From positions 1 to 36,179 of IMG/VR virus record IMGVR_UViG_3300025141_013686: a stretch of 36,179 bases of DNA; one strand, 5' to 3'. The stretch's first letter is position 1. Every line of letters starts with the position of its first letter. The notes under the pieces were generated by a model. The model had not been told where the DNA came from. It searched no databases and saw only the letters and a list, made by a program, of their open reading frames with translations. Shown piece by piece: positions 2,981 to 36,179 of the stretch. Source of the DNA: a virus. The position numbers and the translations under genes were made by a program.

Positions 2981-2991
2981 CTGAATTGCCA

Positions 2992-3333: not shown

Positions 3334-3343
3334 GGACGGAATT

Positions 3344-7214: not shown

Positions 7215-7531
7215 ACCTATTCTATATAATTTTTGGCTTATCGCTGACATTCAATATTGTTTTTGTTTGGTATATACGAGCAATATTAAAAAAGTTGTTT
7301 TTCATATCAGACAATATTGATACAATATCAGAAGTAAACATTAATTTTGCCCAACATATTGAGGTGCTTTATGAACAAGAAAGATATTTTGGAGAACCTG
7401 CCATTGAAGAGTTATTGGCACACTCAAAGCACGTTGCCGAACAAATGAAAGTTTTTGATGATATATTGGCTGACCTAGACTTTATAGAAGAGAAAGCAGC
7501 GGATCGCGAACAAGAGTCCTCTGCACCATGA
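7196..7531 (+). CDS. Single-pass membrane protein of unknown function
   Basis: This 111-residue protein has one predicted membrane helix at about residues 8-28 (FYIIFGLSLTFNIVFVWYIR), followed by basic residues, then a helical soluble tail ending in acidic and polar residues. The positive residues after the helix suggest the C-terminal part is cytoplasmic. Similar short membrane proteins with a helix, then SDNIDTISE-like and YFGEPAIEELL-like segments, seem to recur in marine T4-like phages, as I recall them. No function is known to me. It overlaps the zinc-ribbon gene by 19 bases and the sigma-factor gene by four (ATGA). Confidence 0.65.
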   Translation: MDIQKIDLFYIIFGLSLTFNIVFVWYIRAILKKLFFISDNIDTISEVNINFAQHIEVLYEQERYFGEPAIEELLAHSKHVAEQMKVFDDILADLDFIEEKAADREQESSAP

Positions 7532-8226
7532 GCAATACTGGACGTAGAAAGAAATCAGGTAAGCACTACTTTACCAAAGACCATGAGAATGCCATAATAC
7601 AATATGTTGCTTCAGATGATCAGGTTGAAAGAACCAAGTTATATATTGAATACATCGGTCCAGCATTTAATGAAATGGTGGATAAAATTGTATATACCTA
7701 TAAATTTACAACTCTTCCAAATGTTGATTCGCTAAAGGATGAGTGCAAAGTTTGGTTAACTACTATTCTTGATAAATATGATCCAAACAAGGGATCTAAA
7801 GCATTCTCGTATTTTAGTGTAATTACTAAAAATTGGTTTATTCACAAAGTTAAAAAAAATGCCAAGAGAGCGAGAACTGAAGTGTTATATGATGAGTTAC
7901 CAAAACACTTAGAAACCGCACACGTAACAACAACTAATAAATCTGACGAACTTCGCGAAGAACGCGAGTTTTGGATTGCTTTATGGTCTGAAATAGATCA
8001 CTGGGACACTGGAAATCTTAAGGAAAATGAAAAAAAGGTTTTAGAGGCAGTAAAAATACTATTAAATTCTGTTAATGAGGATGAAATGATTTATAATAAA
8101 AAGGCAATTTACCTTTATTTACGAGAACTTACAGGGCTTAACACAAAGCAAGTTGTTAATAATCTTAATAAATTGCGTATAAAATATAAGATATTTAAGA
8201 AAAACTGGATTAATGGAAAGATATAA
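7528..8226 (+). CDS. Late-transcription sigma factor, T4 gp55-like
   Basis: This 232-residue protein resembles the T4 gp55 group, which replaces host sigma-70 on RNA polymerase to recognise late promoters. The key stretch is about residues 70-115: DECKVWLTTILDKYDPNKG, then SKAFSYFSVITKNWFIHKVKK, corresponding to the sigma region 2 core with an aromatic helix followed by a basic one. T4 gp55 is somewhat shorter (under 200 residues), and the extra length here is C-terminal (EKKVLEAVKILL onward), possibly a region-4-like helical segment. It overlaps the preceding gene as ATGA. The stop codon lies inside a hairpin that continues into the next gene's start. It presumably drives the virion genes downstream. 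No protein similar to the co-activator gp33 is recognisable next to it. Confidence 0.72.
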   Translation: MSNTGRRKKSGKHYFTKDHENAIIQYVASDDQVERTKLYIEYIGPAFNEMVDKIVYTYKFTTLPNVDSLKDECKVWLTTILDKYDPNKGSKAFSYFSVITKNWFIHKVKKNAKRARTEVLYDELPKHLETAHVTTTNKSDELREEREFWIALWSEIDHWDTGNLKENEKKVLEAVKILLNSVNEDEMIYNKKAIYLYLRELTGLNTKQVVNNLNKLRIKYKIFKKNWINGKI

Positions 8227-18363: not shown

Positions 18364-18759
18364 ATGGCAGGATTATCACCTAAATTACCGTTACATAGAA
18401 ATTTTGAAGATGGATATGCTTTGAATAAAACTTTTAAAGACCTTACAAGGCAAAATTTAAAAATGTTAATTTTAACTTCTCCAGGCGAGAGACTTATGTT
18501 TCCGTTATTTGGAGTGGGGCTAAGACGATATTTGTTTAGAAACGCCGATGCAACTACGTTTTCTGAAATAAGAAACAATATTAATTCGCAAGTTAGACGA
18601 TATATGCCTTATGTTAGTATTGAATCGGTCGATTTCCTATCGGAATCTACCTCGACAAGTATAATAGAGGGTACTTCTCCGGGTAATTTTGTACATCTTC
18701 AGATAAAGTATAGTATTCCAGATTCCTTTCTTTCGGATACGCTTAGTGTTAGGATATAA
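18364..18759 (+). CDS. Baseplate wedge protein, T4 gp25-like
   Basis: This 131-residue protein matches the GPW/gp25 family, a conserved component of contractile-tail baseplates that links wedge to sheath and is related by fold to lysozyme-like proteins. The diagnostic stretch is residues 38-58, TSPGERLMFPLFGVGLRRYLF, a family signature (the EPR-type motif is GER here). Length is the usual one for gp25. AGGAG lies about eight bases before the ATG, a good start. It is followed 30 bases later by gp6, the same wedge neighbourhood seen in many contractile systems. This is one of the strongest pieces of evidence that the window is from a myovirus. Confidence 0.9.
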   Translation: MAGLSPKLPLHRNFEDGYALNKTFKDLTRQNLKMLILTSPGERLMFPLFGVGLRRYLFRNADATTFSEIRNNINSQVRRYMPYVSIESVDFLSESTSTSIIEGTSPGNFVHLQIKYSIPDSFLSDTLSVRI

Positions 18760-18789: not shown

Positions 18790-20589
18790 GTGGGCAATAA
18801 ACGTAATAATATAAAAATTAATTACCTAAGTCGAGATTATTCTTCTATTAAAGAAGACCTAATAGCATTTGCAAGAAGATATTATCCCGATACGTTTCAA
18901 GATTTTTCTACGGCTGGTTTCGGCGCACTAATGCTCGATACCGTTGCGTATGTAGGAGATATACTGTCTTTCTACTTAGACTATCAAGCCAACGAAAGCT
19001 TTTTATCGACTGCTATTGAATATGAAAACATTTTAAAACATGGACAAACAGTCGGATATAAACACCAAGGTGCTCGCGCTTCATACGGAAATATTACATT
19101 ATATGCAATCATTCCTGCTAATGCAAGTGCGACAGGACCAGACACAGACTATATGCCCATTATCAAAGCCGGTTCTACATTCGCAGCAGCCAATAACTCA
19201 TTGTTCACTCTTTTAGAAGATGTTAACTTGGCAGATTCAGCAAATGAAATTGTTACAGCAAACACAACGACGACCGGTGAACCAGAAAATTTTGCTGTAA
19301 AGGCAAATGGCGTCGTTGTTTCTGGGGAAGATCGAGTAAAAAAATTTACAGTAGGCGATTTTGTTAAGTTTAGAACTCTGCGCCTTCCAGGCAATAATAT
19401 AACAGAAGTTCTCTCGATAGCAGATCTTGAAGGATATCAGTATTATGAGGTAGATCACTTATCACAAAACACTATTTATGTGCCAATTTCTAATAATGAT
19501 ACCACAACTAACGTGCAAGCTCCCAACATTCTAAAGCCAGTTATTGTCCCGCGCCGGTATATTGTACAAAATGATAGAAATCAAACAGTCATTACATTTG
19601 GATATGGATCCGAAGCAGAAATTTCCTTTCAGTCGCTTGCTAGTTCCAGGGATGTGGTATTAAATATACACTCTAAGAATTATATCACAGATACCGCTCT
19701 AGATCCTTCCGTTCTAATAAAAACAGACCAGTTTGGAGTCGGACCATCTAACACAACTGTATATGTAACATATAGAACCAACACTGCTAGAAATTCTAAT
19801 GCGACTTCAAATTCGGTTACGACACCGGTAAATATACAATCGGAATTTGCGAATCGAACTCAGCTATTAGGTAGTAAAATGGCAGGCGTTAGAAGCTCAA
19901 TTGAGTGTACCAACGAAGAACCCATTCAGGGTGACGTTCGTGCTCCAGGTATTGATGATCTAAAATATTTAATTCAAAGTAGTTACTCGTCACAAAACCG
20001 AGCCGTCACGGCAGAAGATTATAAAGGCATGGTATTAATGATGCCATCTAAATTTGGTGGCGTGGAAAGGTGCTCTATTATACAAGATGTTGATTCAAAT
20101 TTAAGAAATATCAATATTTATACTATTTCACGATCTCCTTTGGGGTTTTACGAACCAACAAATAGTATTGTAAAAGAAAACATTAAAACATGGCTATCAT
20201 CCAAAAGAATGATCAACGATTCTGTAGATATTTTAGATGCTAAGATCGTTAATCTAGGAATTAAATTTGAATTAATTTCTGAGATGGGGGTTAATAAAAC
20301 ACAAATATTTAGTGATGCTGTTTCGAGATTAACAGCATTTCTAGTCAATGGGCAAGATGTCGGTGAAGATTTTAGTATCACAGACTTATACACAGTATTA
20401 AATAATGTACCCGGAGTAATAGACACAGTTTCCATAAAAGTAGACCAGATTGCTCACGTTGGATACTCGTCTATAGTATTTAATGTAAAGACCAATACAT
20501 CCCCAGATGGCAGATATATCAAAGCGCCTGTCAATGTGGTATTTGAAATTAAATATCCAAGTGCTGACATACAGGGAACAATCGTATAA
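18790..20589 (+). CDS. Baseplate wedge protein, T4 gp6-like
   Basis: This 599-residue protein begins with INYLSRDYSSIKEDLIAF and continues YPDTFQDFSTAGFGALMLD, then YVGDILSFYLDYQANESFL, the recognisable N-terminus of T4 gp6-like wedge proteins (Baseplate_J-related). T4 gp6 is about 660 residues, so length fits. It dimerises to form the inner ring of the baseplate that opens during contraction. The start is GTG at 18790 with AGAGG about eight bases upstream. An ATG at 18762 opens only a 12-codon frame and is rejected. The stop overlaps the next ATG by one base. The C-terminal region, with TDLYTVLNNVPGVIDT, matches the usual gp6 end. Confidence 0.9.
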   Translation: MGNKRNNIKINYLSRDYSSIKEDLIAFARRYYPDTFQDFSTAGFGALMLDTVAYVGDILSFYLDYQANESFLSTAIEYENILKHGQTVGYKHQGARASYGNITLYAIIPANASATGPDTDYMPIIKAGSTFAAANNSLFTLLEDVNLADSANEIVTANTTTTGEPENFAVKANGVVVSGEDRVKKFTVGDFVKFRTLRLPGNNITEVLSIADLEGYQYYEVDHLSQNTIYVPISNNDTTTNVQAPNILKPVIVPRRYIVQNDRNQTVITFGYGSEAEISFQSLASSRDVVLNIHSKNYITDTALDPSVLIKTDQFGVGPSNTTVYVTYRTNTARNSNATSNSVTTPVNIQSEFANRTQLLGSKMAGVRSSIECTNEEPIQGDVRAPGIDDLKYLIQSSYSSQNRAVTAEDYKGMVLMMPSKFGGVERCSIIQDVDSNLRNINIYTISRSPLGFYEPTNSIVKENIKTWLSSKRMINDSVDILDAKIVNLGIKFELISEMGVNKTQIFSDAVSRLTAFLVNGQDVGEDFSITDLYTVLNNVPGVIDTVSIKVDQIAHVGYSSIVFNVKTNTSPDGRYIKAPVNVVFEIKYPSADIQGTIV

Positions 20590-22103
20590 TGGGAGTAAAA
20601 AGATACACAGCAATAGCAGATACGACAATTACCAATGCGTTTAAGTTGAATTTAAGGACTCGTGCTACTGGTTCTAATATGGGGCTATCCGATTCGCTTG
20701 AAGTGTTTCATATTTATGGACAAGAATCCTCTGGCTCATCCGAGAATTCCAGAATTTTAGTTAAGTTTAAAGTTACGGGCTCAAACTCGCTCAAAACAGA
20801 TAGAACAAATAAAAAGATTCCGGCAAAAGATAATGTAAGCTTCTATCTTCGCTTGTTCAACGTAAGACACCCGTTTACGCTTCCTAGAAACTATCATATG
20901 ACCATTGCTGCCATATCCCAATCTTGGGACGAAGGCACCGGATTGGATATGGAATCATATAATGATCAGGGAGCAGCAAATTGGACAGATGCCCTAAGCG
21001 GTGCCGCTGGAGTCACAACTTGGGTTTCTGGAGGTGGTGGCGCTTTTCACGCAAGTCCAACATATAGCGCTTATTTTGATAAGGGCACGGAAGACATAGA
21101 GGTTGATATTACAACTTTGGTAGAACAGTGGATCGTAGGCTCTACCGGGGGTTCCGCCAATGGTAAAGAGAATTTTGGCATTGGAGTTTATTTATCTAAC
21201 GAATCAGAAAGTTCCTCTTCATATACAAAAAAATTCTCTTCTAGAGGATCTGAGTTCTTTTTTAGACGCCCCGTGATCGAGGCACGATGGGATTCAGCCA
21301 AAAAAGACGATAGAGGCAATTTCTATTATAGTAGTTCTTTGGCTCCAGCCGAAGACAATTTAAATACATTATATTTATATAATCGCGTTAGGGGCAGGCT
21401 ACGAGATATACCCGGAATAGGACAGGGCGACAACATATTAGTAAGTCTTTTTTCAGGGTCAGGAGATAACTCCAAGCCCTATGGCTCAGCATTAAATCTA
21501 CCTATTTCGGTCCCTTCGGTCAAAACGATTGCTGATTTAAATGCTACTGGCGGTTGGGTTGCAACTGGCATTTATTCATGTTCTTTTGCTGCAACCGCAT
21601 CGGCTACGCCTCTAACTAAACTTTTTGATGTGTGGCACAGTTCCAGCACCCAGCAGTCTCCTCAATATTTTACTGGAAGCATTGTTCCTACAACACTTGC
21701 GCCATCTAATATTAATCCATATGTTAGGTATGCTATGAACATTTCTAATTTGAGAGATGTTTATTATCGTGACGAAACGGCACAATTTAGATTGTTTACA
21801 AGACAAAAAGATTGGAGTCCTACAATATATTCCAAAGCCACAGCAGAAGCTAAGCCCACAATTATAGATAGCGCTTCATTTAAAGTAGTACGAATCGTCG
21901 ATGAATATGAGGCAATACCCTTCGGGACAGGATCCGATATGCACACACAACTTTCTTTTGACGCTTCAGGCAGTTACTTTGATTTAGATTTAACCATGTT
22001 AGAAGCAGGTTATGCATATGGAATTAAATTCGCTTTTTATGATGAGGGCGCAAAATCTTGGAATGAATACCCAGATGTGTTTAAGTTCAGAGTAGAGGAG
22101 TAA
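20589..22103 (+). CDS. Virion structural protein (beta-rich, baseplate-associated)
   Basis: This 504-residue protein is Ser, Gly and Thr-rich and appears to be mostly beta strand. The N-terminal 240 residues (ADTTITNAFK, TGSNMGLSDSLEVF, SRILVKFKV, then RRPVIEARWDS) resemble DNRLRE-type modules, which place an Asp-Thr-Thr-Ile start before a short strand and a hydrophobic 'ILVKF'. Such modules are seen on secreted and surface proteins. The second half has PYVRYAMNISNLRDVYYRDE and YGIKFAFYDEGAKSWNEYP. The gene lies between gp6 and the giant 3313-residue gene, starts on the overlap TAATG and ends one base before the next start, so it belongs to the wedge operon. It could be a gp7/gp8-equivalent or a fibre-attachment protein. 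I cannot choose. Confidence 0.62.
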   Translation: MGVKRYTAIADTTITNAFKLNLRTRATGSNMGLSDSLEVFHIYGQESSGSSENSRILVKFKVTGSNSLKTDRTNKKIPAKDNVSFYLRLFNVRHPFTLPRNYHMTIAAISQSWDEGTGLDMESYNDQGAANWTDALSGAAGVTTWVSGGGGAFHASPTYSAYFDKGTEDIEVDITTLVEQWIVGSTGGSANGKENFGIGVYLSNESESSSSYTKKFSSRGSEFFFRRPVIEARWDSAKKDDRGNFYYSSSLAPAEDNLNTLYLYNRVRGRLRDIPGIGQGDNILVSLFSGSGDNSKPYGSALNLPISVPSVKTIADLNATGGWVATGIYSCSFAATASATPLTKLFDVWHSSSTQQSPQYFTGSIVPTTLAPSNINPYVRYAMNISNLRDVYYRDETAQFRLFTRQKDWSPTIYSKATAEAKPTIIDSASFKVVRIVDEYEAIPFGTGSDMHTQLSFDASGSYFDLDLTMLEAGYAYGIKFAFYDEGAKSWNEYPDVFKFRVEE

Positions 22104-22104: not shown

Positions 22105-25100
22105 ATGTCTGTAAAAGATCTTTTTAAAAGAAGTCATTCAGTTATAGCGTCTGCGAGCCTCGAAACTATGGGAGCAGAAGTTGAATCTGCTGACTATTTT
22201 GAACCATACATAAAAGATCAAGATCGCCTTGAACCTCACGTAGACTTCAGTGATCCAGCAAACTTCGTAAAATACGGTTCTGCTGAACAATATTATGATA
22301 CAGCAATCAAGTGGATTTGGGGAAACTATCCATATGATGGCTCCTTAAAAGAAAAGCTTGAGTGGCGTAATCAGTCAACACTACTTGACTTGTACATTTA
22401 TGATGTGCGCTATCCAAAAACAACTGGATATGCTACTTTTGCGCCAACGCGATGGGGAACTCATACTGGAAGTCTTTATAGTGGCTACGGAGCACCCGCA
22501 TCATCAGATTATGAATATATTAATTTAAAAGGCGGTCCTGGCACTCCGTATGGACAATCAATCGGCACAGCTTCTTTAAAGGGAGTTTTTGACTCCAAGG
22601 CGAATGTTTGGGACGCCGATGTCACCGGATCCGGTACCAGAGAATCAAACTTAAAAACCAATTTAAGTGGCGGTGTCACCGTTGAATTCTGGCTGAAAAC
22701 CGGCTCTTTGAACACCTCAACCCAGACAGCAAGACAAGTTGTTTTTGATATGTGGAATAATCAGGCTTCTTCAAGTGCTGATTATGGGAGGTTTAGAATC
22801 GAACTAGATGGAGCGCCCGGAAACGCCACAGCAACAATAACCATCACGGATTACACCGAACTCAACGCTACCGACAAGGTGAACTTGGTTGCTACTGATG
22901 GCAATAATTATGACTTTACACAAGGCGACCAAAGCTCTGTTAACGGTACATGGGAAGCCACGACCTCGAATGATCAAACAGCAACTAACCTGATGAATGT
23001 CATTAACACTACATCTGGACCATCAGGGACAAGGTTTACTGCCACTGTTGATGGAGCAGTCGTGACTGTAACTCAGGCAACAGCAGGCACAAACGGCAAC
23101 ACAACTATTACTTTGACAGATAGCGGCACCGCTGGCATGACTAAAACAGATTTTACGGGCGGTGAATACCATGGTGCACCACCTTTCCGAATAACGTTGA
23201 TGTCCGGTGCAGCGGGCTTAGGTCGGACCACTCTTGACGCTTCAGGTTCTTCAGGACTTCCCGTTGGTACCGATATTGATCTTAACTCGCTTTCATCTTG
23301 GAAACATTATGCATTTAGTTTTGTTAATAGTGGCAATGAATTACAAACCAAATTTTATGTAGATGGGACTCTTAGTGAAACAATCACTACAGGTTCAAGC
23401 ATTAATGAAATAAGAGAGCCTCTTGAAGCCAATATAGGCGCTCTTTTATCTGGAACATACAATACAACCTGGACAGCCGCAGGTGTCGGTTCTCCAGCCC
23501 ACGGCTGGGGTAAATTATCCGGTTCTATTGATGAGTTCAGATTCTGGAAAACGAAACGAAGCTCTAAAGATATCAAGCGCAACTGGTTCACCAGTAATAT
23601 AGGTGGTGGTACAAATACTGATTTTGCAAATACAGCACTCGGTGTTTATTATAAGTTTAACGAGGGTATTACAGACAAGCTCCCGACAGATAAAATCGTT
23701 TTAGACTATTCGGGACGAATCACCAACGGAACATGGACGGGTTATGAAACAGGCAGCGCTGGAGAACCGTGGCTTGCATCTAGAAATACAGGTTCTGCAA
23801 TTGTATCAGCAAGTGCGGGTGTCGAAGATCTAGATCCAATTATTAGAGCAAACCATCCATTAATTGGGGCTTTAACTACCGAATTAATTGCTAGTGGTAC
23901 CGTATATGATTATACAAATAATTCATCTATGTTCTATTCAATGCCTTCTTGGATTATCGAAGAAGATGAAGGACACGACGGCACTACCGGAGACTTAAAG
24001 AGGCTCACCCAAATATTGGGAAGCCATTTTGATAATTTAGATCTTCAAATTGGAGAATTGTCAAAATTAAATATGGCATCTTATCCAAGCAGCAGTGCGG
24101 ATTTAAAAATGTTCAAGCCATATCCCTATATGTACAGAGCGGTACAGTCGCACGGGCTGGAAAGTCCAGAGCTTTTTTCGGACTCATCACTTCTTGAATA
24201 TTTTCGTAATCGAAATGAAACTAAAGAATTTGAAGAAGATCTACAGACAGTTAAAAATTTAATTTATGGTAACATTTACAACAACCTATCAGCGATTTAC
24301 AAATCAAAGGGCACAGAAAAGTCAATTAGAAACCTTATTCGCTGTTTCGGCGTGGACAACGACGTAGTTAGACTAAATGTGTATGCTGATAATAGCACCT
24401 ATAAGTTCGAACCAAAGCGAAGATTTGCCTCTCATAAGACCAAAGCAGTAGATTTCAATAGCGTTGACCGATTCCAAAGTACAATTTATCAATATCAGGA
24501 CGCCTCTAATGCCAATAGTGTAGGTTATATATCAGGGAGTGCGACCGGCAAAGCCAATGCTGGCTCAATAGATGCTTTCCAATTCGAAGACGGTTTCCCG
24601 ATAACTGTTGAAGCCGAGGTTATTCTTCCCAAAAAGGCATCGATGGACTTCGATGTAGGCAGAAGCCAAGCGTTTAATTTCCTTACATCTTCTCTTTATG
24701 GACTCCACACCCCAGCAATAACCTCAAGCGCGACAACACATACTACTACTACAAACTTGACCTGGGCAACCGGCGATCCAGCAAACTTCCAGGTTTTTGC
24801 AATAAGAGATAGTCTGCACTCTAAAGATGTAAAGTTCTCACTATCTTCGTCTGCTTTACTTCCCAATCATCCTGGTATATCAAGTAGCTATTTTTTGGAT
24901 GTCTACGATGATCAAAAATGGAATCTCGCCGTCAGGCTTAAGCCCCATGGCTATCCACAATCTTTTAGTACTGGAGCATTGGCTAACGATTACACGCTTG
25001 AATTTTATGGTGTCAACTATATTGCCGACAGAAAGGTTAATGAGTTTATTGCAACGGCATCAGTAACTAAAGCAACAGCAGAAAACTTTTTAGCTAACCC

Positions 25101-28100
25101 AAAACGTCTCTATGCTGGCGCACACATAACAAACTTCACAGGCGCTGCATTACAATATAGTGATGCCAAGATAGTCTCTTTGCGTTATTGGATGAATTAT
25201 TTGGACAATACCGTAATTCAAGATCACGCAATGGACCCAAGCAACTTTGGCGCTGGGCGACCTGATAGAAGTGCATATTTGCTGCACTCAGATTTGGGCA
25301 CATTTACTTCTTCCAATGGCATTGTCTCAGCCAGTGTGGAAGTACCACAAATAGAGACATTGGCATTATATTGGGATTTCGAAACTCTTACAGGCTCTGA
25401 TAATGGCAGTGGCTCTCCCACTACGTTTGATGGCAAGTTTACAATACAGGATGTTTCTTCTGGTTCCACGGCACTGGCAAAACGTTATGATTGGTTGGGT
25501 AAAATACTTAAATATCAACACACAGGACGAGGAAACTTTTTCCCAATTAACAATACATCCTCTATCGACACTGTATATTTGTATGCAGGAAAACAACAAT
25601 TGCCCGAAACTGTATTTGGAGACGATAATATTCGCGTCTTGTCTCAAGCAGAAACAGAGGTTTTTACAAAAGAAACACGTCCTACAAAAACATATTATGC
25701 TTTTGAAAAAAGCATGTATCAAGTTATTTCCGATGAGATCATCAACTATTTTAGCTCCATACGCGAGTTCAATAATTTAGTAGGTAATCCTGTTAATCGT
25801 TATAGGCAAGAATATAAAGATATTAAATACTTACGTCAATTTTTCTTTGAGAGAATAAGGAACACTCCAGATTTAGATAAGTTTATAGATTATTATAAAT
25901 GGCTTGACTCCACGCTGGAAGCCATGTTGATGCAGCTTGTTCCAGCTTCTGCACAAACGAGCGACGGGATTGATAATATTGTAGAAAGCCACATTTTGGA
26001 AAGAAACAAATACTGGAACAAATTTGCCCTTATCGAAACTGTTACAGCCACAGAGGGTGGAGCCAAGGGCATTAACAACCTTCTTTATAATTGGAGAACT
26101 GGGCACAGACCTTTAGGTGGACTAGAAGCGGATAATTGCCCTTATTGGTTCCATCGAGCCGAACGCGATACCGCTCCGTTAAGTAGCAGCGATGGAGCTA
26201 CTGATTGGCAAGCGGTGAATACTGATAGAAATAGAATTCTTAGCGCATCGCTACAAGTATTAGAGCGTCAATGGACCACCCCGTTTAAATATACTGTTGA
26301 CCGTACCAAAAATATACATGGCGGCATAAACTATAGTGACAATAAGAAATATTATTATTTCCGGGGCGTTAACATGCCTCACGGAGAAGTTACGGAAGCT
26401 GATTGTGGTCTTTCTGGAGTTCCAAAGAATGTTATCAATGCTTGGAATATAGACGTGCGACCCCTTAAAGTTTGCCTCGATCCCTATCTTGAACCAAATC
26501 CAAATATAAAAACAAAATATTCTTTTGGCACAAACAATGGTCGCGAGCAATTGGATGGATTACATGATACCGTAAAGGGCGCAATCGCAATGCCCTTTAA
26601 TATTTATAGTGCATCTCAAGGTCTTGGCGGGTATAATGAGACTGTACAGGCTGAGTTTCTTACAGGCTCTCAATTAGTAAACTTACATAATGATGGATAT
26701 GGTGTTCTTAACGAAGTACCCATGCAGGGTCCGTTTGCTGAAAAATATGTTGGCGGACATCAAGCGCGACATATTAGAATTAATCGATATGCAGATCCAA
26801 CCCTCGTCGGCGGCGACGGAGCTACCACTCCCAATAATTTAGACGGCTTATATTCTAGACCTGAATCCTGGCGATTACTTTTTGGAGGAGGTCCAGAGTG
26901 TCCCCCAGGAGCGGGCGCGATTGGTCTGACCGGTCCTGACTATGGTGGACCCTACCCAGATTCCACAAAATATAGAGCATGGTGGTTTAGAGAAGAAACC
27001 GCAAAACGTCCAGTCAATATTCGTAATATTTTACAGACGACTGCCTCGGTCGATGTGCCGCTTTCGGGCGTACTTCAGCATGGACCAATCGGTAATTACG
27101 AGAAATCATATCAGGTTGTGCAAACATCTGGAAGAAGTACAAACAATCCTTGGTTTAACGATGGGCAGACAGAATTATTACCAGCACGATATGCCAACGA
27201 TCTGCCAAAAACAACTAACGTTCATACACTGGTCGCCGTGCGAGATGCCGAATTTGACAGCCATGGAAGAGGCAATACGTTTATTCCCGGTACTACACCG
27301 GCAGCTACCGATGCAGCCGCCGCTGAACAAGGCGCTCTTCGAAGGTTGTCCTCACGATATTCTCCTTATAATGTCGTAGCGGCGCACGAAGGAAGACAAA
27401 CAGTCTTTAACTTACCAACCAGAACTAAACAAGATACTGTAATTGTTGAACGCTTCTCTGCTCCTGGCGGACCCGAGATTAATTCCTTGGGATTCTTGGA
27501 TATTGCAGCAGCAGAAAAATCAGTTTATAATGCACTGCCGTATAGAAATCTAACTGTTCGTGGTTCTGGCTCAGGTGAAGCCTCTGGTTCTGGTGGCGAT
27601 ACCATGCGTTTGGAAGACCAGACTGGCAACCGGCGCGGATTACAAACACTTCTATCTCTCCACTGTGGTCAATTTGGATCTGATGCCACACACGGCGTAA
27701 TCAAATTACATCGGGGTGATTGTGATTATCTTTCCGCTTCGTTCCACAAGGTTAATCGTAATGCGCTTTTGCGCCCAGAAGCCGCCGTAGCAGCAGCAGC
27801 AGCAGGGGATCCAGGTGGGAGGTCACTAGAAGCGGTCACAAACATAAGTGCTTCATTATATGACAATTGGTATGTACAGCACCCAATTCCACAAAATGAT
27901 TTTCAATATATGTGGATAAGCGCATCACTAAGTGGCACTGGTAATTTTCGAGCAGCCACAGGATATGCACCTCGTTCTGGGCTGGTTTCCGGCACCAACA
28001 GTTTCCATTCAGCAATTTCATTCTTAACTGCTTCTGAAGCTCTTGCGGTTCTCGATGGAGCTAATTGTGTTTTTGGTACCATTGAAAGAAAAACCGCCGC

Positions 28101-31100
28101 TACCGCATTAACGCACATCCCAGTAGATTTTGTAGGATTAAATACAATAGTCTATGATCCAATTGGGGTACAATTCAATTATCTTGGAGGCGCGGCAGCA
28201 CTGGAAGGCGCAGTATCTTCATCAACTGATTATCTTAATAAATCTATATGTATCGCTGGCTACACAGAAAACGGTGAGGTCGATATGTTTAATGCAATCA
28301 TGCTACATCGTAATGGTCCATATGGATATCCAACATGGAAACAAATTAGAACAGGCGAAAGCTCCATAGTTCGCGCAATGAGAGCAAACAATACATCATC
28401 AATCATTGATCCGGCCACATTGCCAGAGAACTTAAGTGGTCTGCATTTTTATAACTGGAGATCGATGAAATCTCACGATAGCACCGTTTCATACAGTTCC
28501 ACTGGTGGACAGATTTGGTCTATCGAAAATATCTTTGGCGCAGATGGGAATTGGATTGCCTCTCAAGATAGGGAAGTGCTCACTTATCCCGAACCTGTTG
28601 TGATAACAAAATACCAACCATTATTTATTAACGCCAAAACATCAACAGAAGGGGCATGGGTCAACACTAATATCAAAGCAACATATGGAAATTATAAATC
28701 GTATTTTAGCAACCTCCCGCTTAATGACAAGCTATCACTAAATGAACATGGCGACACTCCAGCCGATAGAATTCTTACAGGCTTACATGTGGGCACAATA
28801 CCTAGCGTACTTAATTATGTCGTATATACAGAAAATGTATTCCCGACATCAATAAACAAACACAAGAAACACACCAGAGGACGCCCAACATTTGATTGTC
28901 CATTTTGGAGAAATGATAGGCGAGATAGAGTTACAAAAGACGGCGGACCCGTATACGATGGCAGAGCCTTCTCTCAGAAAAACTCTCAGGGGTTTCCAAT
29001 TTTGACCTCCAGCATGTGGCCACTGGATGCCCGAGCAGCCTTTCACCAAACGTATGAAAGCGCCGCAGACCCCCAGGCACCAACATCAATCCTCACATCG
29101 TTCTTTCCCTCGTACCCTAGCTGTGGGGAATTACAATCTCATGAAGCAACAGTGTTCAACAAAGCCGGAGGCGCTCTTGCCGGGGGCCCCGGCAACCCAA
29201 CCGCATGCACTGCTGGAGAATCCACGACTCGTGGTGCTGCATTCATCACAGCATCAGCGTTATACGCAAGGCGTCATTTATTACCCACCGGTTCCAGTGC
29301 GGTTTCTCCCTCTTCGGGAATAACAGGCTCGTACTGGCGTGATACTGTTTTTGGCTCAGGAGATGCTCCCTGGGATACTGGATTGCAGTCTGGTAAAAGT
29401 CCATTTTATAATTCGTATGATGAATATGCTGAATATCTGCACAAGATTGCCAAAGGTGGTTCTATTTTGCCCGAATATAGAATGAGCGAGAGAATAGATG
29501 ACTATCTTATAAATGGCGTAGATCCTTTTAAAGACACAGCCATGTTTAGTTTGACTGGTGCTCTCGCCAACCACACTTCAAGCCAAGAAGCTAATTTTGC
29601 TAAAACATATAGTAATTCTGAGTTTCAGAAATATTTTGATGTTCTTCAAACCAGTTTGAAAGTAGAAGCATCGGCAAAAGCCCGTCAAATTTCAGTAACC
29701 TGCCACGGAGCAAAAAAACTCCTTCCATATGAGGGATTTCACCCAGCGCTTAGAAGTGTACAATTGGCGTCCCTATTCTCTCAGTCATATGGTGCAAACG
29801 TGTTGTTGACAGGATCTGGACCAAGAGGTGGCCCAGCCTCTCGCTGGCGTGCATTTTTGTCACCAATGTTCGCACCAGGAATATTTTTCAATTCTATTAA
29901 ATCTGGTATTGCCGTCGATTATCCACTAATGTTAGGCGATGTCTCCCTTGGCACAGGTTCATCTTTCGGATACGGCGCAGGCGGCGCTGGCTATCAATCA
30001 ACTTCAAAGAACCACTTTCTTTCACACTGTACCAGAAGCGCAGACAGCGATATGAACCCGGATAATGTTTTTAGTGAGCGATTACCCTTTGAAGCGCTAG
30101 TGGATCCAGAATCATATTATGCAAACAAATCAATAATAGACCTTGAAACACACCCTTCGGCCACTGTTAATATGACCGCATCTTGGGATGGGTCTGGAGA
30201 CGATAGATACAAGTTGGCAATGCACAACTTTTTAGCAGAAGTTCCAGACTTTTACTTGAAAGATGGAACATTACCAGCATTCTTCTCTCAGCCAGAAGAC
30301 ACATGGAAATCCAACACCGCGAAGTTCGATCCTGATAAGTGCTATCAAATGGCTGTTAAAATACGAAAATCATTTGAATATAATACAGATGCGTTCATCA
30401 ACCAAGGTGGAGCCGGTGCCTCCTATGGTTCCTTGTTTCCAAGAGGGTTCGGAGATGTCCCGCAAATTGTTTCGGGAACGGAAACAATTTGTATGTATAG
30501 TAGACCCACCGCATTTGGGCCCCCAAGCGATGCGGGCTCTCTTACTAAGACCGGCACCACCTCAGCTTATAGTAATATCATTTCCTATGGGATCAATCAG
30601 GAAAATTATTGGTTTGGAGGGGGTAGCATGCTTGGATATAATGCCCCATTTACTCCATGTTATTACGATGGGTCTGCGTGGTGTATAATAGAGTGGAATC
30701 CATCGGAGGGAACCACACAGATACCGGACTTAAACACTCTGATATCTGAGTTAACTGCTTCTTATATACGGTATAAAGGATGGCAGCCCAGCGGCAGTGA
30801 AGCAGGGGGCGGATTCCAATCTGGAGAAAATATAAACACAAATGCAAATCAAGTTTCTTCTTCCATAAATCTATTCGGAACATCAAAGGGGTTGGCTGAT
30901 ATTTTGAAATATACTGGCGTCAATCTCCAGGATTCGGAAAATCGATGGGTTATACAAGCGAAATGGGCAACGCCCATATTAAACTTTATTGATTGTTCTG
31001 AACAAGCTGGTGCATTGTTGACCGATGTAAGGAACGCAACAGCAGACGGGGAATTAAATTGCAAAGGCGGTAGGCACACAAGATCAATAGGTATGTGGCA

Positions 31101-32046
31101 TCAATACGGGCGACTTCCAAAGGGGAAAGAAGGCATTTGGCTTGAAATTTCCGATCATAGCGGCAGTCTCACACCTGCTCGACAGAACGAAATATATCAC
31201 GCAGATGCCACCGGCTCTTTAGCGGATTTGGTAGGCTTTCCTAAAACCTCTATTAAAATGGGACAGGTTGCCCCAAGTAAAGTTATCCGCGAAGCCGTTG
31301 TTGCAATTCCGTATGTGCAGACTGACACTGCCCCGGATGGCTCTACAATATTCTTCAATGAAAAAAAATTATTTACACTCCCGGCAAACGATATTCAAGC
31401 CGCATTAACCCCAGGCAAAGGGACTACACAGTCAGTTCAATCCATGGTTGATGCAATGCAACGATATGTATTTCCTCCAAGTTTAGATTTTATTACTTAT
31501 CCCGATTCTGTTCGCCCGTTTACAATGTATATTTTTGAGTTTGAACACAAATTAGATCAAGAAGACCTAGTTGATATGTGGCAAAACTTGCTTCCGAAAA
31601 TCGGACGTTCGTTTGAAAAGAACGGACCCGATAGAGTAGGTACCGAACAAGTCATACAATCTCACACAATTACACATCGTTTAAATATGGGAGAATTACT
31701 ATCTTCTACGCAAGATAATTTACGATGGATGGTTTTTAAAGTAAAACAAAGAGCACAAAGAAATTATTTTAGAAAAGTAGCCGCAACAAATTCAGAGATT
31801 GTTCCAAGTATTCAATATGGGTCGTTATTAGGAGCGTTGTCGCCACTTGGGCAGGCACTTCCTAGCATCATCGCTGGCGGCGCGGCAAAGGGCGCTGCAC
31901 AAAAAACAGATGAAGCAAACCTGACATATAACTGGCCATATGATTTCTTTTCATTAGTTGAACTTGTTAGCCTTGACTCAAGCTTTACATTTGAAGTAAA
32001 CAGCAAAGCAGCCAAAGCTGCGGAGTTAACGAAGGGAAAGAAATGA
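22105..32046 (+). CDS. Giant baseplate/adhesin protein with LamG-like domains and a gpI-like motif (3313 residues)
   Basis: This continuous 3313-residue protein is the largest gene here. Residues about 185-495 form a LamG/concanavalin-like domain (VTVEFWLKTGS, then SSWKHYAFSFVNSG and SIDEFRFWKTKRSSKDI). It is split by a beta-rich insert at about 238-353. Residues 732-750 read YKSKGTEKSIRNLIRCFGV, like the P2 gpI or T4 gp7 'KGT' helix, suggesting a wedge core. A second lectin-like fold seems to lie at about 819-1052 (ITVEAEVILPKK, LRYWMNYLD). The 2000 residues after that are Gly/Ser-rich and unassigned. Residues about 3112-3240 (PFTMYIFEFEHKLDQEDLVDMWQNLLP) look like a compact terminal domain. 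GAGGAG precedes the ATG. It likely forms an outer wedge with receptor-binding parts. The adhesin role is inferred. Confidence 0.72.
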   Translation: MSVKDLFKRSHSVIASASLETMGAEVESADYFEPYIKDQDRLEPHVDFSDPANFVKYGSAEQYYDTAIKWIWGNYPYDGSLKEKLEWRNQSTLLDLYIYDVRYPKTTGYATFAPTRWGTHTGSLYSGYGAPASSDYEYINLKGGPGTPYGQSIGTASLKGVFDSKANVWDADVTGSGTRESNLKTNLSGGVTVEFWLKTGSLNTSTQTARQVVFDMWNNQASSSADYGRFRIELDGAPGNATATITITDYTELNATDKVNLVATDGNNYDFTQGDQSSVNGTWEATTSNDQTATNLMNVINTTSGPSGTRFTATVDGAVVTVTQATAGTNGNTTITLTDSGTAGMTKTDFTGGEYHGAPPFRITLMSGAAGLGRTTLDASGSSGLPVGTDIDLNSLSSWKHYAFSFVNSGNELQTKFYVDGTLSETITTGSSINEIREPLEANIGALLSGTYNTTWTAAGVGSPAHGWGKLSGSIDEFRFWKTKRSSKDIKRNWFTSNIGGGTNTDFANTALGVYYKFNEGITDKLPTDKIVLDYSGRITNGTWTGYETGSAGEPWLASRNTGSAIVSASAGVEDLDPIIRANHPLIGALTTELIASGTVYDYTNNSSMFYSMPSWIIEEDEGHDGTTGDLKRLTQILGSHFDNLDLQIGELSKLNMASYPSSSADLKMFKPYPYMYRAVQSHGLESPELFSDSSLLEYFRNRNETKEFEEDLQTVKNLIYGNIYNNLSAIYKSKGTEKSIRNLIRCFGVDNDVVRLNVYADNSTYKFEPKRRFASHKTKAVDFNSVDRFQSTIYQYQDASNANSVGYISGSATGKANAGSIDAFQFEDGFPITVEAEVILPKKASMDFDVGRSQAFNFLTSSLYGLHTPAITSSATTHTTTTNLTWATGDPANFQVFAIRDSLHSKDVKFSLSSSALLPNHPGISSSYFLDVYDDQKWNLAVRLKPHGYPQSFSTGALANDYTLEFYGVNYIADRKVNEFIATASVTKATAENFLANPKRLYAGAHITNFTGAALQYSDAKIVSLRYWMNYLDNTVIQDHAMDPSNFGAGRPDRSAYLLHSDLGTFTSSNGIVSASVEVPQIETLALYWDFETLTGSDNGSGSPTTFDGKFTIQDVSSGSTALAKRYDWLGKILKYQHTGRGNFFPINNTSSIDTVYLYAGKQQLPETVFGDDNIRVLSQAETEVFTKETRPTKTYYAFEKSMYQVISDEIINYFSSIREFNNLVGNPVNRYRQEYKDIKYLRQFFFERIRNTPDLDKFIDYYKWLDSTLEAMLMQLVPASAQTSDGIDNIVESHILERNKYWNKFALIETVTATEGGAKGINNLLYNWRTGHRPLGGLEADNCPYWFHRAERDTAPLSSSDGATDWQAVNTDRNRILSASLQVLERQWTTPFKYTVDRTKNIHGGINYSDNKKYYYFRGVNMPHGEVTEADCGLSGVPKNVINAWNIDVRPLKVCLDPYLEPNPNIKTKYSFGTNNGREQLDGLHDTVKGAIAMPFNIYSASQGLGGYNETVQAEFLTGSQLVNLHNDGYGVLNEVPMQGPFAEKYVGGHQARHIRINRYADPTLVGGDGATTPNNLDGLYSRPESWRLLFGGGPECPPGAGAIGLTGPDYGGPYPDSTKYRAWWFREETAKRPVNIRNILQTTASVDVPLSGVLQHGPIGNYEKSYQVVQTSGRSTNNPWFNDGQTELLPARYANDLPKTTNVHTLVAVRDAEFDSHGRGNTFIPGTTPAATDAAAAEQGALRRLSSRYSPYNVVAAHEGRQTVFNLPTRTKQDTVIVERFSAPGGPEINSLGFLDIAAAEKSVYNALPYRNLTVRGSGSGEASGSGGDTMRLEDQTGNRRGLQTLLSLHCGQFGSDATHGVIKLHRGDCDYLSASFHKVNRNALLRPEAAVAAAAAGDPGGRSLEAVTNISASLYDNWYVQHPIPQNDFQYMWISASLSGTGNFRAATGYAPRSGLVSGTNSFHSAISFLTASEALAVLDGANCVFGTIERKTAATALTHIPVDFVGLNTIVYDPIGVQFNYLGGAAALEGAVSSSTDYLNKSICIAGYTENGEVDMFNAIMLHRNGPYGYPTWKQIRTGESSIVRAMRANNTSSIIDPATLPENLSGLHFYNWRSMKSHDSTVSYSSTGGQIWSIENIFGADGNWIASQDREVLTYPEPVVITKYQPLFINAKTSTEGAWVNTNIKATYGNYKSYFSNLPLNDKLSLNEHGDTPADRILTGLHVGTIPSVLNYVVYTENVFPTSINKHKKHTRGRPTFDCPFWRNDRRDRVTKDGGPVYDGRAFSQKNSQGFPILTSSMWPLDARAAFHQTYESAADPQAPTSILTSFFPSYPSCGELQSHEATVFNKAGGALAGGPGNPTACTAGESTTRGAAFITASALYARRHLLPTGSSAVSPSSGITGSYWRDTVFGSGDAPWDTGLQSGKSPFYNSYDEYAEYLHKIAKGGSILPEYRMSERIDDYLINGVDPFKDTAMFSLTGALANHTSSQEANFAKTYSNSEFQKYFDVLQTSLKVEASAKARQISVTCHGAKKLLPYEGFHPALRSVQLASLFSQSYGANVLLTGSGPRGGPASRWRAFLSPMFAPGIFFNSIKSGIAVDYPLMLGDVSLGTGSSFGYGAGGAGYQSTSKNHFLSHCTRSADSDMNPDNVFSERLPFEALVDPESYYANKSIIDLETHPSATVNMTASWDGSGDDRYKLAMHNFLAEVPDFYLKDGTLPAFFSQPEDTWKSNTAKFDPDKCYQMAVKIRKSFEYNTDAFINQGGAGASYGSLFPRGFGDVPQIVSGTETICMYSRPTAFGPPSDAGSLTKTGTTSAYSNIISYGINQENYWFGGGSMLGYNAPFTPCYYDGSAWCIIEWNPSEGTTQIPDLNTLISELTASYIRYKGWQPSGSEAGGGFQSGENINTNANQVSSSINLFGTSKGLADILKYTGVNLQDSENRWVIQAKWATPILNFIDCSEQAGALLTDVRNATADGELNCKGGRHTRSIGMWHQYGRLPKGKEGIWLEISDHSGSLTPARQNEIYHADATGSLADLVGFPKTSIKMGQVAPSKVIREAVVAIPYVQTDTAPDGSTIFFNEKKLFTLPANDIQAALTPGKGTTQSVQSMVDAMQRYVFPPSLDFITYPDSVRPFTMYIFEFEHKLDQEDLVDMWQNLLPKIGRSFEKNGPDRVGTEQVIQSHTITHRLNMGELLSSTQDNLRWMVFKVKQRAQRNYFRKVAATNSEIVPSIQYGSLLGALSPLGQALPSIIAGGAAKGAAQKTDEANLTYNWPYDFFSLVELVSLDSSFTFEVNSKAAKAAELTKGKK

Positions 32047-32081: not shown

Positions 32082-33179
32082 ATGGAATTTTTTAATAAAA
32101 AAGAAGAAGTAATTGATTTACAACTGACACAGCATGGCAAACATCTCTTGTCAAGGGGGAAGTTTAAGCCAATTTATTATGCCTTTTATGATGATGGGAT
32201 TTTATATGACGGAGAATACGGGAGTGACATCAGAGAAATACAAAACAACACAGAAGGCAGAATTCAAGAAAACACCCCAAATTTAAAGACACAATACGTT
32301 TTTCACGATTTAGATAAAGGATTTGGTGAAGCTCTGCACATCCTTACAAATACGCAGAATCAAGTCGCCGCCCAACAAGTCCTCGCAGCGACCCCTGAGC
32401 AAAGCCAAATTTTAATTACTCCACTGGGCAGTTCTGACTTAGGCAGCGAGTACCTTCCAGCCTGGAAAATATCTACTCTAAGTGGTGAATTCCTTCCAGG
32501 TGATACAACTCCAACTTTAGCTTTAAGTGGCTCTAACACAATTTTAAATATTCCACAAATTGGATGCGAGATAGTGTATAACGTTTCTGTTGAGGATATG
32601 ACAGAGAGCGTGACTCAAGATATGCTTGATGCAATTGCTAGGGGAGATCTTGATGGAACCCCACAAAGCGTTTTAGAAGAACAATTGGCTGGGACTACAG
32701 GCTATAGTGATGTGAATTATAATGTACATGTTTTTGACGACAACACGTTTCTAAAAGTTGAATCGGATTCCCTGATCATGCGAATTATAGAAGATAACGT
32801 TAATCCGAGTATTAAAGGCTATGAAATAGAAGTATTTGAAGTAGAAGATATTGTTCTTGGTAATAAAACAGTGACACAATTAAACGCACTTAGATTTATT
32901 AATGAACCTGACTTGATTGTTGATAATATTCTTTTGGATGAATCAGAAGTGCAACAAGCCAAGATAGTAACTGATTCTAGTTTTGTTAACCACTATTTTG
33001 ATATAGAAGTCGATGACGAAATAGAAGCAGGACTAATATGCAGCAAAATTCAGAATGCTGACAAAACTCTATATAAACTTGTTACATTAGATTTCGAATG
33101 TCCTGACGCAACATCTAATTACCAATTCTTGAGCCCCTATGCTCAAAAGACAGACGATGAAGAGTGTGGAAATGGTTAA
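32082..33179 (+). CDS. Conserved virion structural protein, unassigned
   Basis: This 365-residue acidic protein starts MEFFNKKEEVIDLQLTQHGK, then FKPIYYAFYDDGILYDGEYG. I recall a very similar N-terminus in proteins of marine T4-like phages encoded next to baseplate genes, usually without a function. The centre is strand-rich with Val/Asp/Thr, and the C-terminus ends in EECGNG. It begins 35 bases after the giant gene and has only a weak possible SD. I see no catalytic motif, membrane segment or signal peptide. It may be a baseplate or fibre-connecting protein. Confidence 0.62.
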   Translation: MEFFNKKEEVIDLQLTQHGKHLLSRGKFKPIYYAFYDDGILYDGEYGSDIREIQNNTEGRIQENTPNLKTQYVFHDLDKGFGEALHILTNTQNQVAAQQVLAATPEQSQILITPLGSSDLGSEYLPAWKISTLSGEFLPGDTTPTLALSGSNTILNIPQIGCEIVYNVSVEDMTESVTQDMLDAIARGDLDGTPQSVLEEQLAGTTGYSDVNYNVHVFDDNTFLKVESDSLIMRIIEDNVNPSIKGYEIEVFEVEDIVLGNKTVTQLNALRFINEPDLIVDNILLDESEVQQAKIVTDSSFVNHYFDIEVDDEIEAGLICSKIQNADKTLYKLVTLDFECPDATSNYQFLSPYAQKTDDEECGNG

Positions 33180-33220: not shown

Positions 33221-36179
33221 ATGGCACATGCATGTCCGATAATTCCAAAAGTCTATATTGATAAAGTATTTTTAGGCAATGCTTCCTTATCTACGAGTGG
33301 TGATGGAGAAGTAACCGTTAACACGGGCGACATTATTGTAAACTTAAAGTTTACACAATTAATCGAGGCAGACTTGGTGAACAATCTCATGGAATTCCCA
33401 AATTCAGATATTAATATACAAGATTATGTTAAAATTGTATGTATGTTATCAACTTCACAAGAGGTAACAGATGTCATAAAAGAAGGTCTTGATCCTCAAA
33501 ATCGATATGAGGGTGGCTGGCCAGCCCCCTGGACGTTCAATCAATATAACATGCGCGGACCAACCACTTGGGATGGTAGTGCTTATTGGACCCCGTTTGC
33601 TTTAGGTGATCCGCTGCTGAAGCCAGGGGCGCATGGGTTGCGAGCAGGACAGTTTGACAGTGACCCCATCGGTAGCCAATATTACGCAGAAATCCATTCC
33701 GTCGATGAGTTTACATGCACCCCAGACATCACCTATCAAGATGAGCCGTTTGTTGCCAATGGAGTATATAGGTTTGGGTCTTTCCGCAACAATGCGAACT
33801 TCGAGTCGCTTACCCACTTAACTTGTTTCGCTTATGTAGTAATAGACACTGATCAATTAGAGACAGATTATAGTATATCATTACCTTCTCAATATAAATA
33901 TTTTACAACAGGCTATTATGTGCAAGAACGCATTATAGAAGGGGGCGACGTTGCACCCAAGTTTTTTGTTAAAATGGATTCGGGAGATACCACCTCGGAT
34001 GCCGATCCGCAAGACAAAGCAGATCATTCCCATACATATCAGATTGACGCCAATGGCAATGGTATTACAGATACCGTGACGATATCGGCGGACCCCCGCT
34101 ATGATCACTTTCATGAAATAAAAAATTATGCAGTCTTCTTGTCCCACAACCATGTGCACGAGATCAACGAGGACGCCCTTTCTGTCACAAATACTATTGA
34201 TTATAGAATACAAGCCGAATTGGATGCGCTACACACATCCCTTGCGGGCATGGGAACGCGATTGCTCGCAGAAGAAGAAGCAGTTTATTTTTCTGATATG
34301 TGGCTAACAAAAGACGCCTCCAGAAATGCTAGATATGCTTTTACATTTGATTATGGAAAGTTTATTCTCAACGAATCCGATGATAGAGATTTTATTTCAA
34401 ATATGAGCATTACCGCAAAACAACAAATAATTTCTAATTCTATAATCACAAAATTTATATTGAGCAGACATCAAGTTGGACCCGGTGGAATCGATGTACC
34501 CGTGGTTGAAGATCTAGACGATCCCGCTCTAACTGAAATTGGTTTAGAACTAATGAGCCAAAGCTATCCCAGTGGTAATGGCCAGAGTTACTCACTATTA
34601 AGACATTTCACCGGAATCGACGCACCAGCAGGTTTGACCTTCGGTGAACCCCGCGTAGGAATGGCAGATTTAACTTCTGGAGAGTATCAGTATATACTAG
34701 ACATAGAGGTTGTTGATGGATTTGCCTCTATGATTGCCCTCATCCTGAAGCCTCTTGTTGAAGCCTTCGCCAATTATCAAGAATATTATAATACGGCAAT
34801 GCTTCCGTTACCTTCTGAACTATGTGAACATTTTACTCTCAAAGGCGTGAAAAACCTAGATAAGCCCCTCAGCCAGATTGCAACAGATACAATCATTGCC
34901 TACCTTGATGCACTCGGAGCACTCTTCGACGGCTTCGACTCCCAATCTTCTCACTATGCGTATTATCAAAGCAAATTACAAACAATGGTGTATCCAAAAA
35001 CAGGTACTCAAGAAGGCGTGGCACTTCTTAACCAAATGATGCTAGATTTGGTGGGAATTTATGATAACCTGCTACGGAAAAATTCATCAGGTACAAGCGT
35101 AGAAGTAACAGCAGCCGATATACAATCAAACAATCTCGCCCTCCACGACAACGCACCCGTGATTACAATGCGTTATGAGTTTAATAACTATATAGACGCA
35201 CTATTTGAAAATGATATGTATGTAGATAATGTGAGCCTTAGCCTATCCGATGTGATACCAGGATTAAAGGTTTATACCATACCACAGTTGCTCAGCGCAA
35301 CATCAACGGGAGTCTCTGACGCCAACCCTACCGTTGAAGATCAAACTTCATCCGATGGGTATAGTGCCACCACTGACTCAACTGATACCACATCTACATC
35401 AGATGACGCATTGACCCGCGAAGAAGCCGATGCCGCAGCCGATGAACACTGGAACGCAGCTTCTGCGGCAACTCTAGCAACTGATGAGAGCGGTGCGGCA
35501 ATCTCCCTCAGTTCCGCAGCGGCAAACGCATTAAGCTCCTACACGGGTCAGCAGGCTACGACATGGACTGTTGATAAAGGAGGCACCACTTCAAGCATCT
35601 TTTCAATGGGGAATTATTTTGGAGGCGCGGTAGCCAAAGTGAACCCGATCTTTAAAGCCGCTGTAACAACAAACGGCGATTCTACTGCCGTTGATTTGTT
35701 TACATCAGATCCACAGCCCGCATCTACTCTTATGAATGAGGTTGAGGTTTTAATGAAGTATAATATCGCCACACCGCAGCCGCCGACAACTCTTGGCGGC
35801 ATACAGCTTAAAAGCGACGACTGGGCAGTAAAGAGGTTTGAGGAGCTTAACGTAGCAAGCTGCACTGGACCTGTCACCACACGCTGTTATTATCTTTGTC
35901 GTCAATCTGAACCTTCAGGATGGAAATGGGGAGAGATTATTAATAGATATTTCTTATTGGTGGCACCGCAGATCCCCTGGGCTCCCGCCACACCCAAAAA
36001 AGAGAAAAATTGGGGAGTTGTGGACGAGATAGACAAAGATTCTACATCCTGGAATCAAAAGGGTGCCATTGAACAACTTAACCAACAAAGAGAGGAAGAA
36101 TCTGAAAATTCGCAAAGCAACGGCAAGGGCATCGGCAAGGGCATCGGCAAGGGCATCGGCAAGGGCATCGACAAGAGCA
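33221..36179 (+). CDS. Large tail or baseplate protein with His-x-His clusters, 3' partial
   Basis: The frame from ATG 33221 is open to the last base (986 complete codons), so the gene continues to the right. GGGAG lies 12 bases upstream. Residues about 1-60 are strand-rich. Three His-x-His clusters lie at 269-271 (HSH), 296-298 (HFH) and 309-313 (HNHVH), around an Asp-Gly-like DANGNGITD, a layout I recall from marine phage tip domains. His-x-His clusters bind iron in T4 long tail fibres. Residues about 702-760 are Ser/Thr/Asp/Ala-rich. The visible end is EEESENSQSNGK followed by GIGKGIGKGIGKGI, coded by a 12-base repeat. No stop is seen, so the true length and C-terminus are unknown. The role is inferred as tail tip or fibre. 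Confidence 0.68.
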   Translation, partial: MAHACPIIPKVYIDKVFLGNASLSTSGDGEVTVNTGDIIVNLKFTQLIEADLVNNLMEFPNSDINIQDYVKIVCMLSTSQEVTDVIKEGLDPQNRYEGGWPAPWTFNQYNMRGPTTWDGSAYWTPFALGDPLLKPGAHGLRAGQFDSDPIGSQYYAEIHSVDEFTCTPDITYQDEPFVANGVYRFGSFRNNANFESLTHLTCFAYVVIDTDQLETDYSISLPSQYKYFTTGYYVQERIIEGGDVAPKFFVKMDSGDTTSDADPQDKADHSHTYQIDANGNGITDTVTISADPRYDHFHEIKNYAVFLSHNHVHEINEDALSVTNTIDYRIQAELDALHTSLAGMGTRLLAEEEAVYFSDMWLTKDASRNARYAFTFDYGKFILNESDDRDFISNMSITAKQQIISNSIITKFILSRHQVGPGGIDVPVVEDLDDPALTEIGLELMSQSYPSGNGQSYSLLRHFTGIDAPAGLTFGEPRVGMADLTSGEYQYILDIEVVDGFASMIALILKPLVEAFANYQEYYNTAMLPLPSELCEHFTLKGVKNLDKPLSQIATDTIIAYLDALGALFDGFDSQSSHYAYYQSKLQTMVYPKTGTQEGVALLNQMMLDLVGIYDNLLRKNSSGTSVEVTAADIQSNNLALHDNAPVITMRYEFNNYIDALFENDMYVDNVSLSLSDVIPGLKVYTIPQLLSATSTGVSDANPTVEDQTSSDGYSATTDSTDTTSTSDDALTREEADAAADEHWNAASAATLATDESGAAISLSSAAANALSSYTGQQATTWTVDKGGTTSSIFSMGNYFGGAVAKVNPIFKAAVTTNGDSTAVDLFTSDPQPASTLMNEVEVLMKYNIATPQPPTTLGGIQLKSDDWAVKRFEELNVASCTGPVTTRCYYLCRQSEPSGWKWGEIINRYFLLVAPQIPWAPATPKKEKNWGVVDEIDKDSTSWNQKGAIEQLNQQREEESENSQSNGKGIGKGIGKGIGKGIDKS
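36122..36173 (+). repeat. 12-base tandem repeat at the right edge
   Basis: The unit GGCAAGGGCATC occurs four times exactly (36122-36133, 36134-36145, 36146-36157, 36158-36169), and a partial degenerate copy (GACAAGAGC) follows. It is in frame and encodes Gly-Lys-Gly-Ile repeats (residues 968-983), ending in Asp-Lys-Ser. Exact copies suggest recent expansion, and slippage can change copy number. The window ends inside or just after it. Confidence 0.92.

Follow-up and report, generated by a model that had tools for sequence, protein, structure and literature searches.

Can a single uninterrupted gene of 3313 codons encode a baseplate wedge subunit of a contractile tail, and what else does so large a protein carry? 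This question is raised by the IMG/VR virus record IMGVR_UViG_3300025141_013686, whose 36,179 nucleotides are called the window here; the rest of the source genome lies outside this 36-kb record. In the original prediction, the core of the protein was regarded as a possible wedge component, onto which, if so, receptor-binding parts that are separate proteins in T4 had been fused. The analysis presented here makes it likely that the giant protein is a gp7-type (P2 gpI-type) baseplate wedge subunit of a contractile phage, enlarged into a scaffold. Within this scaffold a short cassette was recognized, which other, unrelated tail genes of uncultured marine phages share at the DNA level. Coordinates of all features are collected in Table 1.

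Table 1. Features of the giant gene and its neighbourhood in the window, with the evidence for each assignment
Feature	Coordinates	Strand	Evidence
gp25-like baseplate wedge subunit/sheath initiator	18364..18759	+	phrog_261 E 2.6e-17, phrog_43 E 1.2e-9; matched in 110 loci
gp6-like baseplate wedge subunit (P2 gpJ equivalent)	18790..20589	+	phrog_6 E 1.1e-18, phrog_219 E 1.9e-17; matched in 121 loci
Conserved 504-aa protein of the structural operon, encoded between gp6 and giant gene	20589..22103	+	Matched in 97 loci; cassette landing site in relatives
3313-aa giant wedge-type protein	22105..32046	+	One uninterrupted ORF, ATG to stop
LamG1, concanavalin-like, about residues 185-545, cassette-interrupted	22657..23739	+	Laminin_G_3 in relatives; empty-site alignment
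Mobile 338-nt in-frame domain cassette in LamG1 loop, residues 241-353	22825..23162	+	DNA homology limits; empty-site alignment; tree
Wedge core, first helical half (A), residues 575-775, with KGT motif	23827..24429	+	Immuto gp162 hhalign E 8.8e-17; cyanophage/T4 gp7 E 4.4e-5
gpI/gp7-type motif YKSKGTEKSIRNLIRCFGV, residues 732-750	24298..24354	+	Sequence; Tail_P2_I E 0.12 over residues 730-790
LamG2, concanavalin-like, about residues 785-1045, between the two helical halves	24457..25239	+	AlphaFold model, Foldseek
Wedge core, second helical half (B), residues 1198-1308, ending ...LVPASA...VESHILERNKYW	25696..26028	+	Alignments; equivalent half present in immuto and in Mel-JY01
C-terminal module part 1, about residues 1496-2290	26590..28974	+	Start: separate gene in L118; end: L070/L090 gene junction
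C-terminal module part 2, residues 2293-3313	28981..32043	+	Separate ORF in L070 and L090
365-aa conserved protein downstream of giant gene	32082..33179	+	Matched in 59 loci

Gene context and family of the giant protein

The giant gene is the last of a series running gp25, gp6, the gene for the 504-aa protein and the giant gene itself, followed by the gene for the 365-aa protein and an open-ended ORF, and the order of gp25/gp6 and the giant gene is kept across about 100 loci. A scan with the core alignment identified at least 485 related stretches in IMG/VR, constituting a family of uncultured marine phages. From these, 80 loci (designated by L numbers) were fetched, which contain 88 family ORFs, with some loci overlapping, and both ends lie inside the locus for 62 of them. 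That the giant ORF is real was borne out by these relatives, since in 55 of the 62 two-ended members the full length, 2783-4031 aa, is encoded by a single ORF, and one open-ended member exceeds 4900 aa. Only the immuto phages were recovered as relatives when residues 1-2965 were compared by tblastn with about 50,700 phage records. Separate gp8 and gp10 proteins were looked for with profiles in seven large contigs of relatives; no gp8 was found, and the gp10 profile gave two weak matches, both on one contig, which are not convincing. The separate gp10 equivalent that would have spoken against the original prediction thus did not turn up in these contigs, although such a gene may have escaped the profiles.

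Other genes of the window were observed alongside. The open-ended ORF after the 365-aa gene (33221-36178, 986 aa) has no family match, and similar ORFs are present in 22 loci. Upstream of the tail genes, positions 2156-6690 hold a metabolic cluster with a FabG-like reductase, two nucleotide-sugar epimerases and a cysteine dioxygenase (phrog_7851, E 2e-57), and positions 7528-8226 weakly match a late sigma transcription factor (phrog_234, E 4e-7).

The helical core and its relation to gp7 and gpI

The core consists of two helical halves, the first of which contains the KGT motif, whose K and G are invariant in 67 members. The homology of this core to gp162 of Flavobacterium phage immuto is firm at the level of profile alignment, and a counterpart of half B is also present in immuto gp162. 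Relation to the classical wedge proteins is more distant. Searches of the core against Pfam, NCBIfam and PHROGs returned sub-threshold gpI-type matches only, namely Tail_P2_I in three of the 67 members, at a score under the Pfam cut-off, and TIGR02242 in three members. A comparison profile built from ten giant cyanophage proteins and three T4-type gp7 sequences matched the core profile with an E value of 4.4e-5 (probability 69%, centred on the motif), the best of 20 column-shuffled controls reaching 0.031. The cyanophage gp7 set itself matches T4-type gp7 with E 7e-9, and it is again at this motif that T4 gp7 is recognized by PHROG 2885 ('baseplate wedge subunit', 4179 positions). These comparisons lend moderate support to homology of the core with cyanophage and T4 gp7, and homology with P2 gpI appears marginal (P 0.011). 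No match was obtained by hhalign of the core against T4-type gp7 alone, gp8 or gp10, nor by a PDB sequence search with the core, and a scan of viral contigs with P2 gpI returned near-identical coliphage copies only.

Structure prediction did not provide the wedge-like fold that had been anticipated around residue 740. AlphaFold modelled the helical halves of the core with pLDDT of about 45-65, and the model of the lectin-free immuto core (pLDDT 44.7) was unusable. Foldseek comparison of the core model with PDB and viral libraries returned neither gp7 nor gpI; LamG2 dominates the matches, and the remaining ones, which lack a name or have not been characterised, presumably belong to the family. 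The predicted wedge identity was thus supported in part, and no fold match was added. The identification as a wedge subunit draws on the gene order, the KGT motif, the sub-threshold Tail_P2_I and TIGR02242 matches and the gp7 profile match, and further on the core homology to immuto gp162, which itself follows gp25-type and gp6-type genes. Counting against it are the absence of gp7 and gpI from the Foldseek matches, the weak similarity to P2 gpI alone, the empty comparisons with T4-type gp7 alone and with PDB sequences, and the 504-aa gene placed between gp6 and the giant gene, unlike the arrangement in T4.

Lectin-like domains and the C-terminal module

As had been predicted, the motif lies between two concanavalin-like domains, LamG1 preceding the core and LamG2 separating its two halves. 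Both belong to the concanavalin/LamG superfamily, which is established for LamG1 by profile matches of its homologues and for LamG2 by its fold. The LamG1-homologous region of L002 matches Pfam Laminin_G_3 over the Pfam cut-off (E 4.6e-8) and that of L008 slightly short of it (E 4.1e-6); the window's own copy, which is interrupted, gives no Pfam match. LamG2 is modelled with pLDDT of about 90 across most of residues 770-1060, using a 67-sequence alignment, and its Foldseek matches include agrin, SHBG, legume lectins and alginate lyases. One correction to the original prediction is required, as LamG1 is interrupted by an inserted cassette of 113 residues. The proposed fusion of receptor-binding parts to a baseplate component was thus upheld as regards lectin-like domains fused to or inserted in the core; that these bind receptors is suggested by the domain type.

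The unassigned residues following the core were likewise found as described, about 2000 residues in which no Pfam or PHROG family is matched. They are largely made up of a C-terminal module of about 1900 residues, which is a separate gene in one relative, is unseen in another and is split elsewhere in five. The L118 protein ends at 1259 aa and is followed by three small ORFs and then by a separate ORF for the module, starting at the equivalent of residue ~1496. In L077 the protein stops at 1270 aa, and the genes that come next are a 279-aa ORF and those of the tail sheath and the tail tube; on this short contig the module was not seen and the 365-aa gene was not detected, and since the contig is short, the module could be encoded elsewhere. 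In L070 and L090 the split lies at ~2290 with ordinary gene junctions, in L062/L063 it lies at ~1910, and L119 is in pieces. Inserts in the module correspond to Laminin_G_3 in 6 of 17 long relatives (best E 5e-41), with pentaxin and reelin-type matches also observed. Because the module is separable or split in relatives and hosts further domains, these comparisons support its being an accessory, domain-collecting part of the protein. The separate module gene of L118 (14621-15896) also carries 'ALDI.AGKMYWTD' repeats, resembling YWTD beta-propeller repeats.

A domain cassette shared by unrelated structural genes

The cassette, about 113 codons long, occupies a site in LamG1 that is empty in 12 aligned relatives. 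By blastn, homology to the window cassette covers precisely these 338 nt (22825-23162) in 7 of 11 copies, and the remaining four deviate by 1-9 bases at one end. Its landing genes comprise the wedge gene (at least six sites), the tail sheath (at least three), the 504-aa gene and many unclassified ORFs. Within the wedge gene, copies were located at approximate positions near residues 239, 805, 828, 868, 1120, 1337, 1592 and 1622, among them those placed after the core in L083, L084, L086 and L101; a further copy lies inside the 504-aa homologue of L072, and others in the tail sheaths of L233, L252, L257 and L312. In L262 (2519-7213) and L286, one protein with several copies of the cassette domain, some of them in tandem, was also noted. 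The cassette gave no match in cultured phages, and none was confirmed in bacteria or archaea by a pattern-seeded scan of one genome per species covering 84,980 species. It has no PDB sequence match and no Pfam match in the window protein, and one of 20 copies matched a PHROG family, phrog_28344, which carries no named function.

Divergence of the cassette differs from that of its host proteins. Compared with the copies of L101/L251, the window cassette shows DNA identity of 85% and identity of 66% at fourfold sites (53 sites), the corresponding values for the L101 backbone against the window being 53% and 22%. Across 18 contexts, cassettes keep 79-89% amino-acid identity to the window copy, even at fourfold identity of 24-50%, whereas the wedge proteins that carry them have diverged to 35-50%. 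Such retention of the amino-acid sequence where fourfold sites have changed so extensively points to purifying selection acting on the cassette domain. In a quick DNA tree of 342 columns, in which many ORFs are labelled 'other', the window cassette falls together with one sheath copy and with six copies inserted elsewhere in the wedge gene (SH-aLRT 100), and a single clade was rejected both for wedge copies (AU p 4e-49) and for sheath copies (p 0.007). The cassette has, on this evidence, moved horizontally between structural genes. We favour, with some reserve, a 338-nt cassette with near-fixed ends that travels from one structural gene to another, unrelated one in uncultured marine phages, the giant wedge being one platform for it. 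Its sharp ends may reflect a dedicated insertion mechanism.

Alternative explanations

Another reading of the lectin domains and the very large size, both typical of adhesins, is that the giant protein is of tail-fibre or adhesin type with a KGT motif arising by chance, and that the real gp7/gpI is another gene, e.g., that of the 504-aa or the 365-aa protein. The 504-aa gene does adjoin gp6, in the usual place of gp7 or gpI, and the gp7 profile match is of moderate strength. However, the most conserved part of the giant protein is the motif-bearing core, which is homologous to immuto and Mel-JY01 proteins from the equivalent gene cluster, no wedge family is matched by the 504-aa protein and the L077 protein is reduced to little beyond LamG1, the core and LamG2, so that we consider such an adhesin unlikely. 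The single ORF could also encode a precursor cleaved into the wedge core and one or more C-terminal proteins. Gene junctions of relatives at about residues 1496, 1910 and 2290 indicate that the pieces can be separate chains, and basic residues are abundant in the region 2254-2275, but the split relatives have ordinary gene junctions and one ORF is kept in 55 of the 62 complete members; cleavage is accordingly given a similarly low probability.

A third concern is that the giant ORF or its inserts were created during metagenome assembly, for assemblers can be expected to go astray at repeats, and the cassette occurs in many copies. Against this, dozens of contigs contain full-length ORFs, in the window one and the same LamG domain continues in frame on either side of the cassette and several insertion contexts recur across separate samples (L083/L084/L086/L101; L237/L238; L287/L288/L289). 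An assembly artefact is contradicted by these recurrent ORFs and contexts and was rejected as extremely improbable.

Comparison with known systems

The closest known parallels to a gp7-type wedge protein of this size are the Kyanoviridae gp7/VrlC 'baseplate wedge initiator' proteins, which have the same KGT motif, giant size and a long C-terminal extension and, where the flank was read, follow gp25-gp6 as in the window. Following gp6 are proteins of 4120 aa in S-SCSM1, 4225 aa in ACG-2014f (annotated baseplate wedge initiator), 3533 aa in S-MbCM7 (VrlC), 6737 aa in S-WAM1, 5172 aa in S-SCSM2R and 3494 aa in ACG-2014j and ACG-2014i, and the same motif is present in proteins of 6817 aa in ACG-2014d and 6198 aa in S-RIM14. 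The size of the window protein, taken at first as exceptional for a baseplate gene, is hence unexceptional for this gene position in marine myophages, the cyanophage counterparts spanning 3494-6817 aa. The motif lies in the residue 200-700 region of the cyanophage proteins, as compared with residue 732 in the window protein; outside the motif region similarity was not detected, and the alternation of LamG domains and core halves was not seen in them. In marine T4-like phages (cyano- and pelagimyophages), T4 gp7 is absent, with VrlC apparently in its place, and ConA-type proteins are encoded in the same operon (PMC7029224). Giant wedge proteins are thus already known from marine cyanophages, and the window protein is most likely of gp7/VrlC type with a cassette added.

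T4 gp7 (1032 aa) and P2 gpI (176 aa) share with the window protein the KG-T/I helix motif and the position in the gp25-gp6 cluster, but have neither fused lectin domains nor a C-terminal module of this length; the sequence link to T4 gp7 passes via cyanophage profiles only, the one to P2 gpI being marginal. Immuto gp162 (1265 aa) and WWT39511 of Microcystis phage Mel-JY01 (1336 aa) have a homologous two-half core after gp25 and gp6, and by inspection WWT39511 has a LamG-like insert between the core halves, in the same place as LamG2 of the window; LamG1 or a C-terminal module of the window's kind was not found in either. As for the cassette, Ig-like domains are exchanged horizontally among tailed phages and are likewise accessory, beta-rich and present in the sheath and other tail proteins (PMC9230969). 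The window cassette differs from these in that its DNA ends are nearly fixed and copies in unrelated genes remain highly identical in DNA.

Proposed function and significance

In T4, the (gp6)2-gp7 complex and in XM1 its counterpart nucleate the wedge (PMC10457771), and on this ground the core of the giant protein would join two gp6-like subunits and thereby start the assembly of one wedge out of six. Domain type and variability suggest that the LamG domains, the C-terminal module with its inserts and the cassettes may point outward from the baseplate rim, where they would contact glycans of the host surface, and one polypeptide would then combine adhesion with the wedge that triggers sheath contraction. 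Loops in different relatives host extra lectin-like or beta-rich domains, and exchange of surface cassettes would alter adhesion with no rebuilding of the core.

The comparisons suggest that giant marine wedge proteins represent one widespread design, in which a small conserved gp7-like core carries adhesion parts that T4 keeps in separate proteins. The existence of natural members with and without the C-terminal module in the same gene makes the role of this extension testable. The most unusual element is the cassette, with ends that are nearly fixed and DNA that stays alike in unrelated genes. It allows the spread of a single domain over sheath, wedge and other tail genes to be traced and bears on how adhesion may change fast in phages.
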